The notes under the pieces: generated by a model | Databases searched by the model: none | Told to the model about the DNA's origin: nothing | What the model saw: only the letters and a program-made list of their open reading frames with translations | Made by a program: the position numbers and the translations under genes | Part shown: piece after piece, positions 1 through 12,783 of the stretch | How positions within the stretch are numbered: the stretch's first letter is position 1 | Layout of the letters: every line of letters begins with the position of its first letter | DNA from: Halobacteria archaeon HArc-gm2 | Lineage (GTDB): Archaea > Halobacteriota > Halobacteria > Halobacteriales > Haloarculaceae | Assembly: GCA_025517465.1 (NCBI GenBank) | Contig: JAOPKE010000004.1 | Coordinates: 386,165 to 450,164, forward strand | Direction: 5' to 3' | Length of the DNA: 64,000 nucleotides

Positions 1-428
1 ACGATGGGCGCGGTCCGGTTGCCATCCAGTGAGAGCACGAGCCGGTGTCTCTCCGCTCCTTCGAGCGTCAGCGGCGTACCGTCACCCGTCCGTAGTGGAA
101 CCTCCGGAAGGTGACGCACTCGCTGTCTGCCGCCCGTTGCCGTCCAGGTGAGCCGTCCACCGCCAGCGGTCCGGGACTGGCCGATCGTGACAGCGTCGAC
201 GCCCGCGTCGCTCCAGCTTCGTGCAGGCAACCGAATTTCGACGACGCGTCGGGCCCCGTCCTCGGTGGGATCGTCGGTGGCCAGCAGGTCCGTCGCCGCC
301 CGTTCGAGCGCGCGTAGCTCCGTCCCGACCGTCGTTTCGGTGTGTTCCAGACGCGCCTCGTCGATGGCCGGGAGACTCGCGCCCAGCAGGGCGGTCGTGA
401 GCACGACGGCAAGTACCACCCGTATCAT
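1..428 (-). CDS. DUF7311-like haloarchaeal protein, C-terminus cut by window edge
   Basis: The reading frame is open from the ATG at 426-428 to the left edge, so only about 142 N-terminal residues are present. It starts with a short hydrophobic segment (MIRVVLAVVLTTALLGASL), consistent with a signal peptide or single anchor, followed by a polar region with no cysteines. Its ATG overlaps the stop codon of the upstream gene (ATGA), so the two are translationally coupled. From memory, a DUF7310 coiled-coil protein and a DUF7311 protein are neighbours in haloarchaea, often near type IV pilus or secretion genes; the family name is recall, not a search. The function is unknown. Confidence 0.6.
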   Translation of the reverse strand, partial: MIRVVLAVVLTTALLGASLPAIDEARLEHTETTVGTELRALERAATDLLATDDPTEDGARRVVEIRLPARSWSDAGVDAVTIGQSRTAGGGRLTWTATGGRQRVRHLPEVPLRTGDGTPLTLEGAERHRLVLSLDGNRTAPI

Positions 429-7109: not shown

Positions 7110-7664
7110 CTACTCCAGCGGACAACTGATGTCAGTTTTTTCGAACGCTACCTCCACAGAGGCTTCAACGCGCGCCAGCTGTCGGTCCGTCGGCCAGGCG
7201 TTCCGCGGGAGGTACTCCTCGATAAATTCGCGGAGTTCGGACCGCGTCAACTCCGTGATCGGCTTCGCGTAGTGGTTACTCGCGAAGTCGGCCAGCGCAC
7301 GGGCGTTGGCAGCGTGGACGTCCTCGTGGTCCGCTGCCACGTCCTCGACGAGTTCGTCGTTCGTCTCCGCGACCGCCTCCCAGTCGTCGGGGTCGCCCGC
7401 GCCGGAGAGTCGACGTTCGACGCCGCGGTCCACGTCCTCGATGCGCTCCGTCCGGACGGTCCCGTCGTCCATCCACTCGGAGGGATAGCAGACGAGGACG
7501 TCGGCGTCGTCGTCTTCCCGGATCCGGACCGTGTAGTCGTACTCGCCGATCAGCGCGTCTCGTTCCGTCCGGTAAGCCTTGCTTTCGGCCGGGTCGACGG
7601 CCTGTCGCGCCAGGCGCGTCAGCCGTTCGGCCTCCGCGACGACGTCGTCGGGAAGCTCAGTCAT
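7110..7664 (-). CDS. RnhA-operon protein (DUF7108-like)
   Basis: This 184-residue acidic protein follows rnhA with an 8-bp overlap (7657-7664), so the two are one operon. It is all-helical by composition, with no catalytic motif that I recognise. The C-terminal part (LTRSELREFIEEYLPRNAW) is the best conserved-looking stretch. From memory this is the haloarchaeal 'rnhA operon protein' (DUF7108). Function unknown. Confidence 0.75.
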   Translation of the reverse strand: MTELPDDVVAEAERLTRLARQAVDPAESKAYRTERDALIGEYDYTVRIREDDDADVLVCYPSEWMDDGTVRTERIEDVDRGVERRLSGAGDPDDWEAVAETNDELVEDVAADHEDVHAANARALADFASNHYAKPITELTRSELREFIEEYLPRNAWPTDRQLARVEASVEVAFEKTDISCPLE

Positions 7665-10127: not shown

Positions 10128-11414
10128 ATGCGTCTCGACGAGTTCGTCGCGGGGTTCGAGCGGGACGAAGCGGCCGAGCGACGGCGCCTCGCCGGGGAAA
10201 AGTCCTACGAGATCACCAACTACCTGGACGACGTCGAACAGCAGTTCAAGGAGACGGTCCAGGGCGACTCGCTGTTCGGTTCGACCGCGCCCGAGATTTT
10301 CGTCGGCCGGTCGGGCTACCCGAACATCTCCACCGGCGTGCTCTCGCCGATGGCCCAGGACGCCGACGCCGCCGACTTCGCCACCAGCGGCGAGTGGTAC
10401 CAGCGCGGCCTGGGCATCGACGACGTGCTCCAGCGCCGGACCGGCCTGCTCAACTCCACGCGGTCGGCGAAGGTCAACGTCGACGACGTCTGGGACGGCT
10501 TCGTCGGCACCCAGCGCGAAGTGGCCATCGCCGACAGACCCGTCGACGTCGAGGTGGGGCTGGACGACGCCTCGAACCTCGACATCGGTCTGGACGACAT
10601 CTCGACGCCGACCGGTCCGCGGGCCCGGGCCAGCAGCGCCGAACTCGCGGAGAATCCCCACGTCCCCCGCTCCGTCGAGAAGACGCTGGAGGACGACGAC
10701 TGGCGCGCCGAGGGGGCGATGACGTACCTCTACAACCGCGGGTTCGACGTGTACGAGGTCAACACCATCCTCTCTGCGGGCGCCATGGGCCAGAACCACG
10801 AGCGCAAACTCGTCCCGACGCGCTGGTCCATCACCGCCGTCGACGACACCGTCGGCAAGTACCTCCGCGGCGGCGTCCTGAACCGTGACACCATCGACAC
10901 GACCGAGGTCTGGTACAACGAGTACATGGGCAACCGGTACTGGGTCGTCCTGACGCCGGGTCGCTGGGAGTTCGAACTCGTCGAGATGAAAGCCCCCGAG
11001 AGCGTCTGGAACCCCGTCGCCGAGTCCTACTACCTCTCCAGCGCCAGCGAGGGGTACGAGGGCCGCACCGGCTACGTCGAGGAGACCGCCGGCGCGTACT
11101 ACGCCTCCCGCCTCGGCGTGCTGGAACACCTGCAGGAGCGCGACCGACAGGCCAAGTGTCTGGTGCTGCGTGAGGTCACCGACGAGTACTGGGCCCCCGT
11201 CGGCGTCTGGCAGGTCCGCGAGGGCGTCCGCAACGCCTTCCAGCAGGGCGCCGGCGACGCGAGCAACCCCCGTCTCGCCGACCAGCCGGCCGAGGCCGAG
11301 ACGTTCCGCGACGCCGTCAACGCCGTCGCCCAGCAGCTGCCGGTGTCGCTGAACACGCTCCGCCGCAAGTCCGACATGGTCGCCGGACTGCAGTCGCAGA
11401 TCACCGACTTCTGA
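10128..11414 (+). CDS. nreA: archaeal DNA repair protein NreA
   Basis: This 428-residue protein matches the archaeal Nre family (NreA in Haloferax is linked to DNA damage repair and PCNA). Visible family features are the TAPEIFVGRSGYPNISTG stretch near residue 50, GMGIDD-like QRGLGIDDVLQRRTG (~92-106), and LSAGAMGQNHERKLVPTRWS (~218-237). The last residues, QSQITDF, fit a PCNA-interacting peptide (Q-x-x-I-x-x-F) at the extreme C-terminus. There is no N-terminal zinc ribbon, unlike NreB. The first of the small membrane-protein genes follows 39 bp downstream. Confidence 0.9.
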   Translation: MRLDEFVAGFERDEAAERRRLAGEKSYEITNYLDDVEQQFKETVQGDSLFGSTAPEIFVGRSGYPNISTGVLSPMAQDADAADFATSGEWYQRGLGIDDVLQRRTGLLNSTRSAKVNVDDVWDGFVGTQREVAIADRPVDVEVGLDDASNLDIGLDDISTPTGPRARASSAELAENPHVPRSVEKTLEDDDWRAEGAMTYLYNRGFDVYEVNTILSAGAMGQNHERKLVPTRWSITAVDDTVGKYLRGGVLNRDTIDTTEVWYNEYMGNRYWVVLTPGRWEFELVEMKAPESVWNPVAESYYLSSASEGYEGRTGYVEETAGAYYASRLGVLEHLQERDRQAKCLVLREVTDEYWAPVGVWQVREGVRNAFQQGAGDASNPRLADQPAEAETFRDAVNAVAQQLPVSLNTLRRKSDMVAGLQSQITDF

Positions 11415-11453
11415 TTCGACAGTGCTTTGACGAGTGCCGCGGCAGGCGAGGAT

Positions 11454-11666
11454 ATGGTCGCTGGCATCCCCGGCTGGAACGAGATAGCTATCCTCGGCAC
11501 GTTGGTCCTGTTTTACGGTGCAGTGGCGGCCGGTGCCATCGGATTGCTCCGATGGATCGTGGATCGGCGAACGAGAGAACTCCGCCAGCGCGTCGCGTTG
11601 CTGGAGCACAAAGTAACCGAGATCGAAGCCGCTGCCGACGACGACAGTCTGGACGGGGCGGAGTGA
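11454..11666 (+). CDS. TatA-like mini membrane protein, array member 1
   Basis: This frame encodes 70 residues: a short N-terminus MVAGIPGWNEIAIL, one membrane helix (~10-35), and a cytoplasmic coiled coil (RTRELRQRVALLEHKVTEIE). It is the most divergent of a tandem group of five small genes (11454-12783) that share a Gly-Pro-Gly or Pro-x-x-Glu entry into the helix, as in TatA/TatB. It starts 39 bp after nreA and has no strong TATA box, so it may be cotranscribed with nreA. Its function is unknown. Confidence 0.65.
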   Translation: MVAGIPGWNEIAILGTLVLFYGAVAAGAIGLLRWIVDRRTRELRQRVALLEHKVTEIEAAADDDSLDGAE

Positions 11667-11715
11667 CGGCGAAGCAGCGTTCACTGACATGCTGTCCCGG
11701 CAGCCAGGCCGGTGT

Positions 11716-11723
11716 GTTTAACA
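11716..11723 (+). promoter_or_regulatory. TATA box of array member 2
   Basis: GTTTAACA lies 24-31 bp upstream of the ATG at 11747, giving a leaderless arrangement. Confidence 0.55.
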
Positions 11724-11746
11724 ACTGACCGTCAGAAGCCCCCGCT

Positions 11747-11980
11747 ATGCCCTCCACGATCGCGCAAATCGGAATCCCCGGGTTTCAGGAACTGATTATC
11801 GTCCTCCTGATTAGTCTCCTGATTTTCGGCATTCCGATAGCTCTCATCGTCGTGTTCATTCGACGCAAACGAGCGGCCGACGCTGCGACCGAAGAGCGCG
11901 TTGCGGAACTCGAACGGGAGGTCGAGGAGCTACGAGCGGCAGACTCCGAGAGCGACCGGGCGTCTGGCGGTGATCGCTAA
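11747..11980 (+). CDS. TatA-like mini membrane protein, array member 2
   Basis: This frame encodes 77 residues. The N-terminus IGIPGFQELIIVLLISLLIFG closely resembles haloarchaeal TatA (Pro-Gly, a Glu at the helix entrance, and an FG hinge). However, the amphipathic helix of TatA is replaced by a second hydrophobic stretch and then a coiled coil EERVAELEREVEELR. Members 3 and 4 share the same coiled-coil block almost word for word. It has its own promoter. I would not call it a functional TatA on this evidence. Confidence 0.75.
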   Translation: MPSTIAQIGIPGFQELIIVLLISLLIFGIPIALIVVFIRRKRAADAATEERVAELEREVEELRAADSESDRASGGDR

Positions 11981-12017
11981 CGGGTAAGGGACAGCCTGGA
12001 ACTGCCTGTAGAAGCAA

Positions 12018-12027
12018 GTATTTAACG
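12018..12027 (+). promoter_or_regulatory. TATA box of array member 3
   Basis: GTATTTAACG lies about 25-34 bp before the ATG at 12052. Confidence 0.55.
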
Positions 12028-12051
12028 AGCCATTCCGAGAAATTATCGCCA

Positions 12052-12294
12052 ATGTACCAAACCGCCCTCCAAGTCGGAATACCCGGCACGCAAGAGATAC
12101 TGATCATTCTCCTCATACTGATCGTACTCGTGGCCCCAGCCGTGGTCGTCGTTCTCGTTGCCCTGGGTGTTCTCCGTCTGTGGCAAGGTGACTCGACCAG
12201 TAACGAGGAACGGATCGCGGAACTCGAACGGGAAGTCGAGGAACTTCGGGAGGAGTCGTCTTCCACGGACGGAACGCCTGACGGCCGAGACTGA
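12052..12294 (+). CDS. TatA-like mini membrane protein, array member 3
   Basis: This frame encodes 80 residues: VGIPGTQEILIILLILIVLV leads into a long hydrophobic region up to residue ~45, then a coiled coil EERIAELEREVEELREE and a polar tail. The layout is that of members 2 and 4 with a longer hydrophobic part, and no FG hinge. It has its own promoter and a 71-bp gap to the previous gene. Function unknown. Confidence 0.75.
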   Translation: MYQTALQVGIPGTQEILIILLILIVLVAPAVVVVLVALGVLRLWQGDSTSNEERIAELEREVEELREESSSTDGTPDGRD

Positions 12295-12361
12295 CGCCGT
12301 CGTTCTACCGAATTCGGACGCCACGAGAGGCGAAACGTGGCTTCCGAACAGTCGAGGGAGT

Positions 12362-12370
12362 AGTTTTAAC
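12362..12370 (+). promoter_or_regulatory. TATA box of array member 4
   Basis: AGTTTTAAC lies 25-33 bp before the ATG at 12395. Confidence 0.5.
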
Positions 12371-12394
12371 ACGACCGGTTCGGTAGCCCGCGCT

Positions 12395-12628
12395 ATGGTT
12401 TCAGTCGTTTTTCAGGTCGGACTCCCCGGCGTTCAGGAACTGATAATCATCCTTCTCAACTTCATCATCCTGGCCGGACTTGTCGGCGGGCTCATCGTCG
12501 TCGTCAAGCGTCTGACCGGGAACGACTCCAAGTCGGACGAACGCATCGCGGAACTCGAACGCGAAGTCGAGGAACTCCGCGAAGAACGCGGGACGGGGAC
12601 GGACGAACCTGACGACGAACTGGAGTAA
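12395..12628 (+). CDS. TatA-like mini membrane protein, array member 4
   Basis: This frame encodes 77 residues: VGLPGVQELIIILLNFIILAG starts the membrane segment, a second hydrophobic run (LVGGLIVVVKRL) follows, and then DERIAELEREVEELREE. The coiled-coil block is nearly identical to that of members 2 and 3, which argues for recent duplication or selection for mutual pairing. The ATG at 12395 was chosen because the frame upstream overlaps member 3 out of frame. Confidence 0.75.
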   Translation: MVSVVFQVGLPGVQELIIILLNFIILAGLVGGLIVVVKRLTGNDSKSDERIAELEREVEELREERGTGTDEPDDELE

Positions 12629-12635
12629 TCTTTAC
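12627..12635 (+). promoter_or_regulatory. possible TATA box of array member 5
   Basis: AATCTTTAC overlaps the stop codon of member 4 and lies 26-34 bp before the ATG at 12661. Confidence 0.4.
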
Positions 12636-12660
12636 CAACAGGTATCGGGATCAGGTAGGT

Positions 12661-12783
12661 ATGGCCGCTATCGTCTTCCCGTTTACCATGGAGTTACTCG
12701 TCATCGTGCTGTTCGGGCTCGTCGCCCTTCCGGTGTACGTCGCGACGCGGATCCTCGACGCGGTCGAGGACGCGCTGTCCTGA
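12661..12783 (+). CDS. TatA-like mini membrane protein, array member 5 (40 residues)
   Basis: A 40-residue frame, MAAIVFPFTMELLVIVLFG followed by LVALPVYVATRILDAVEDALS, sits 32 bp after member 4. It keeps the Glu-Leu-Leu helix entrance and an FG pair like TatA, then an amphipathic C-terminal helix, but lacks the long coiled coil. Its position at the end of a run of similar genes and the candidate TATA box support it being real despite its size. Confidence 0.55.
   Translation: MAAIVFPFTMELLVIVLFGLVALPVYVATRILDAVEDALS

Follow-up and report, generated by a model that had tools for sequence, protein, structure and literature searches.

TatA-entry coiled-coil proteins of haloarchaea: an N-terminus that mirrors the genome's own TatA and, in one array, membrane heads that differ between close relatives

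We analysed a window of haloarchaeal DNA (the whole stretch of 64,000 nucleotides, from a genome of 4.25 Mb) in which four small genes, A1–A4, and a gene of 40 residues, A5, lie 3' of nreA, all on the + strand. Judged by their alignments, A1–A4 are members of a widespread, uncharacterised haloarchaeal family with a coiled coil as its signature, for which we use the working name TEC (TatA-entry coiled-coil). Two observations are new: the N-terminus of TEC proteins mirrors the TatA of the same genome, and the heads of the array genes are replaced or chimeric between close relatives. The reading that we tentatively place first is that TECs may be accessory membrane proteins associated with the Tat system.

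The nreA gene, which encodes a DNA repair factor and is the syntenic neighbour of the array, occupies 10128..11414 of the + strand (NF041387, 753.8 bits against a cut-off of 700; Pfam Nre_N and Nre_C). A reading made from the sequence alone had placed five open reading frames of 70, 77, 80, 77 and 40 residues behind it, and all were found at these places and lengths: A1 at 11454..11666, A2 at 11747..11980, A3 at 12052..12294, A4 at 12395..12628 and A5 at 12661..12783. A1 is a divergent first TEC member with a coiled coil at about 11571-11627. A2 combines a TatA-like entry, a long transmembrane helix and a coiled coil at 11894-11935; the coils of A3 and A4 lie at 12208-12249 and 12539-12580. 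A5, with a single transmembrane segment and no coiled coil, is loosely associated with the others. The TatA-like entries that had been described are present as PGxxE in A1–A4 and as MELLVIV in A5, and we could also confirm the near-identical coil of A2–A4 (common ER[IV]AELEREVEELR) and the membrane parts that differ between array members while the coil is common.

The same reading had assigned private leaderless-type boxes to A2–A5. This holds for A2, A3 and A4, where TTTAAC at −30/−31 reaches 6/6 in a simple box score, a level met by 0.3% of window positions (11717..11722 at −30 of A2; 12021..12026 at −31 of A3; 12364..12369 at −31 of A4, with the letters listed as TTTTAA; all + strand). The claim is weaker for A5, whose box (TTTACC, 12631..12636, + strand) scores 5/6, as does that of A1, a level met by 4% of window positions. 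The placing of the boxes of A2–A4 suits leaderless transcripts, which make up 72% of the protein-coding transcripts in Haloferax (PMC4983044). The GC content at third codon positions was 0.64-0.73 in A1–A4 versus 0.94 in nreA, which suggests different expression or recent exchange. A5 is near-identical only in the closest relative found, G191 (E 1.4e-18; dN/dS 0.20, from few sites), and elsewhere gave one weak match (G297, E 0.005); it is possibly a young gene, almost unknown outside G191.

How widespread is the family? A search with A3 gave matches in 147 of the 293 genomes of the order, and a 19-row profile gave matches in 269 of the 293, although real TatA proteins answer this profile too. 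In a phylum sample of 197 genomes, 26 had matches at E 1e-5, every one of them from the same order. A first scan of genome contigs with A3 returned no matches, while a tighter alignment did; a plasmid tblastn gave no match. The consensus reads QxGxPGGxELxIILLIxxLLFGxP, followed by one or two basic residues and then ERIAELExEVExLRE. A short N-terminus leads up to its Glu, the polar residue at the membrane entry, which is invariant in the alignments. Most genomes carry one copy. Pairs were found in G098, in G103, G059 and G172, in G213 and in a few others: in G098 an A1-type first gene also stands 3' of nreA, and in G103, G059 and G172 an additional small gene with a transmembrane segment and a coil takes the place of A1. 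The array in the window is the longest TEC run found.

The sequence-only reading had held the array itself to be what matters. The single-copy orthologues that the family search found across Halobacteriales speak largely against this: because TEC usually occurs as one copy, the array is a lineage-specific expansion and is not required for TEC function. Likewise, the coil is present in single-copy relatives too, so it marks the family as a whole and is nothing special to the array.

TEC proteins differ in build from TatA. In a comparison of 36 genera, 36/36 TatA proteins had a hydrophobic run of 15 residues behind the Glu, as opposed to a median of 26 residues in TEC. AlphaFold, run with 18 sequences, modelled A3 as one unbroken helix over residues 13-72 (pLDDT ∼97 over the membrane part) with no TatA-type break, in agreement with the earlier claim that the amphipathic helix of TatA is absent; from this single straight helix we take both the hinge and the amphipathic helix to be missing, and the FGxxKxP motif was absent from the TEC alignment. 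The coil comprises only about two heptads. The charges after the membrane helix suggest a TatA-like orientation, with the N-terminus on the outside.

We then asked how TEC compares with known families. A1–A5 reached no cut-off of the curated families in Pfam, NCBIfam, PHROGs or PADLOC; the PADLOC anti-phage models gave no match at all, and PHROGs gave one weak match, of A3 to a family of unknown function (E 0.002). Most of the chains returned by a profile search of the PDB were coiled coils; Tat proteins appeared at a non-significant E of 0.4-1.5. With TatA/TatB/TatE (PF02416) TEC shares the PG-xx-E entry, the polar residue at the start of the membrane helix, the single span and an N-terminus that co-varies with the genome's own TatA. 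It differs in its longer membrane run, in a coiled coil that replaces the FG-hinge and amphipathic helix, and in its scores, none of which passes the gathering cut-off of 21 bits (A2 12.7 bits; best E 0.0045 among the 18 TECs scanned), whereas the real TatA of the window genome reaches 55.9 bits. Bacterial TatB also has a Glu at the entry, a TatA-like start and a cytoplasmic helical extension, and TEC would fill the TatB gap of archaea; however, TEC has no amphipathic helix and is not encoded with tatA or tatC. PspB (TIGR02976, cut-off 51.7 bits) resembles TEC in its short N-terminal membrane helix and cytoplasmic zipper, but was matched by A2 only, at 15.1 bits, and no psp genes were identified nearby. 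The LapA domain (PF06305, cut-off 28 bits), a membrane helix followed by a coiled coil, gave 16.1-17.8 bits with A2–A4 and weak matches in 7 of 18 TEC members, all below the cut-off; to our knowledge, its definition contains no TatA-type entry.

The link to Tat comes from the N-terminus. We compared the 12 residues before the Glu of TEC with those of TatA from the same and from other genomes, ungapped and anchored at the Glu. TECs were retrieved by family profiles and not by their own TatA, so the likeness is not built in. Over 36 genera the segment scored 35.8 against the own TatA versus 20.2 against others (p = 5e-5, the lowest value that 20,000 permutations can give); p was again 5e-5 when shuffling was confined to families, the level to which phylogeny was controlled. 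One TatA/TEC pair was drawn from two genomes of one genus, and where a genome had several TatA proteins one was used, generally the best-scoring. The mirroring was seen in both nreA-linked and unlinked TECs; a first test over 13 genera pointed the same way. TEC and TatA share VPLFPGIPGGIEVF in G206, MIPLFGPVPGG in G090 and FIPGAPGGPELL in G223, and in G173 GPE replaces the usual PG pair in both. Residue −1 agrees with the own TatA in 29/36 genomes versus 36% expected; within families, the agreement is significant in just one of the four tested at this residue.

The pattern along the protein is uneven. In the fast-changing segment, agreement between TEC and its own TatA (0.58) exceeds that between the TatA proteins of different genera (0.45), while in the slowly changing transmembrane part it is 0.43 versus 0.75; within families, mirroring is hardly present in the membrane part (p 0.036). 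A matched fast part beside an unmatched slow one is the reverse of the pattern left by a recent plain duplication. In our reading of these alignments, the mirroring points to docking or processing shared with TatA. The earlier doubt about a Tat role is weakened by this likeness of the N-terminal segment to the own TatA, although TEC lacks the parts with which TatA forms a pore.

The surroundings of TEC genes vary. Among the 65 genomes listed in both the TEC and the nreA searches (coordinates collated by hand), 45 have their best TEC match on the nreA strand and no more than 1.2 kb downstream of that gene, with a median gap of 84 nt; in 20 it lies elsewhere. Linked carriers include Halorubrum, Halobaculum, Halobellus, Halorussus and Halorientalis, and nreA and TEC stay together where the other neighbours differ. 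In family f7 of the order, the gene after nreA codes for another kind of small protein, which has a single span and an acidic tail but lacks the PGxxE entry (L146 +63..285, L148 +97..361, L150 +119..380). Searches for HVO_0733 and HVO_0735, the neighbours of Haloferax nreA (HVO_0734 according to a review), returned nothing. Unlinked TECs have as neighbours a CPBP protease, a TctA-like protein or an Fe-S membrane protein of 708 residues, the last two names being what we take these proteins to be from their sequences. In five or six genera TEC is immediately followed by a gene for an Rce1-like CPBP membrane protease, with a 4-nt overlap in two (L052 6747-7744; L053 5808-6853; L049, L051, L033 and L029), and in L049 the TEC–CPBP pair stands without nreA. 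In one genus, unlinked TECs share 4 nt with a TctA-like transporter gene, and in another they come after the gene of the large Fe-S membrane protein (L209 2642-4179, L210 3962-5481; L207, L208 and L224), which suggests that they are coupled to various membrane proteins.

Could the TatA-like N-terminus be a mere remnant of tatA? TECs would then be generic small membrane coiled-coil adaptors, PspB- or LapA-like, with no role in Tat; duplication or gene conversion would repeatedly have founded or overwritten them from the tatA 5' end. The varied neighbours and the sub-threshold LapA and PspB matches are consistent with this, as is a small excess of shared codons: at residues identical in TEC and its own TatA, 0.50 of the codons agree versus 0.45 expected (binomial p 0.008), so that some gene conversion with tatA is possible. 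However, an agreement so near to expectation favours selection on the protein over DNA copying, and judged from the codons gene conversion is unlikely to be the main cause of the mirroring. Moreover, the transmembrane part, a conserved region of TatA, shows no mirroring comparable to that of the fast N-terminus, and the coil and the nreA linkage are common across families, which argues for one old TEC family. We therefore regard an origin of this kind, without a Tat role, as rather doubtful.

A second explanation replaces the docking site by an enzyme. If a rhomboid or another membrane protease cut the outer tails of both proteins, TEC and TatA would both follow its recognition preference. Providencia TatA indeed needs rhomboid removal of an 8-residue N-terminal extension before it binds TatC (PMC3712462), rhomboids are present in haloarchaea (PMC4343526), and the mirroring is concentrated in the outer segment. 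The CPBP genes directly 3' of TEC would fit as well, but they are mostly confined to one family, the mirroring also extends to residue −1, next to the Glu, and the cleavage site is only hypothetical. Shared processing in place of docking seems unlikely, although less so than the mixed-oligomer and NreA readings discussed below.

The reading that we place first, tentatively, is the Tat-associated one. In E. coli a polar residue at position 8 of TatA and TatB binds TatC (PMC5201420), and archaea, which lack TatB, are credited with TatA and TatC only, while haloarchaeal export is mainly Tat-dependent (PMC2910488). TEC would keep the TatA-type entry with its Glu and use the contact of TatA for docking. 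Being unable to thin the membrane, it would serve as a regulatory or TatB-like subunit and perhaps fill the place that TatB leaves empty in archaea; its cytoplasmic coil would self-associate or recruit a partner. In the lineage of the window, tandem duplication would have multiplied the gene, with most copies gaining their own leaderless promoter, and recombination, once inside coil-coding DNA, would have reshuffled heads and tails. Against this reading stand the failure of any TEC to reach the Pfam TatA cut-off, the usual neighbour being nreA with no tat gene recognised among the neighbours examined, the codon sharing slightly above expectation, and the limits of the mirror test given above (family-level control; residue −1 significant in one family of four). 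TEC is also dispensable in G172, where a MITE-like palindromic insertion of ∼85 nt in the coil codons truncates the nreA-linked gene (L042, ∼7210-7300).

Finally, we asked what the array adds, by comparison with G191 (nreA dS 0.19, dN 0.006). Identity is ∼0.95 over nreA and the spacer. It falls to ∼0.6 with the start codon of A1, recovers to at least 0.85 in the A1 coil, falls again through the A2 promoter and head, and stays at 0.88-0.95 from the A2 coil onward. By this comparison, the A1 and A2 heads have been replaced and not merely mutated (dS of the A2 head ∼1.5). In the A3 head, as in A5, synonymous exceeds non-synonymous change (omega ∼0.2, from few sites), in line with both being real genes. 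G191 aligns to 11414-12254 of the window and then from 12536, both stretches mapping to the same G191 bases; it is without one unit of 331 bp, and the junction lies within the A3/A4 coil DNA (12208..12249 with 12539-12580, + strand). Its gene B3 is a chimera of an A3 head (148/156) and an A4 tail (44/48), and B2 matches A2 in its tail (42/45) but in only 83/144 positions of its head. In G103 and G059, identity likewise drops locally over the distal membrane part and is ∼0.95 on both sides. Haloarchaea are known for free recombination (PMC4500145, PMC3990103). Between close relatives the membrane head varies while the coil stays, and there is a combinatorial element at the DNA level, heads and tails having been reshuffled between these relatives.

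What this element would do in the membrane is less certain. That TEC stands in for TatB and that the array, swapping heads onto a constant coil by recombination, would yield several variant Tat partners is, taken as a whole, distinctly unlikely. The earlier suggestion of mixed oligomers, in which array members would join through the coil that they share while the membrane part varies, as in a combinatorial assembly, strikes us as very unlikely: the coil residues are identical in A2–A4, the promoters are similar, and coils persist where heads are exchanged, yet most genomes have a single copy, where mixed oligomers are not needed, and a coil of about two heptads is short. Identical predicted interface residues would permit mixing but do not show it. 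Least probable is a membrane partner of NreA that tethers or regulates DNA crosslink repair, since the close, persistent same-strand linkage to nreA is offset by the 20 best matches that lie elsewhere, by NreA working through PCNA and UvrABC (PMC4929162) and by the TatA mirroring, which it leaves unexplained.

TEC is a concrete candidate for a missing Tat subunit or regulator of haloarchaea, and its candidacy could be tested simply in a culturable haloarchaeon. The head-swapping array, for its part, would show how a small membrane protein diversifies in a modular way.
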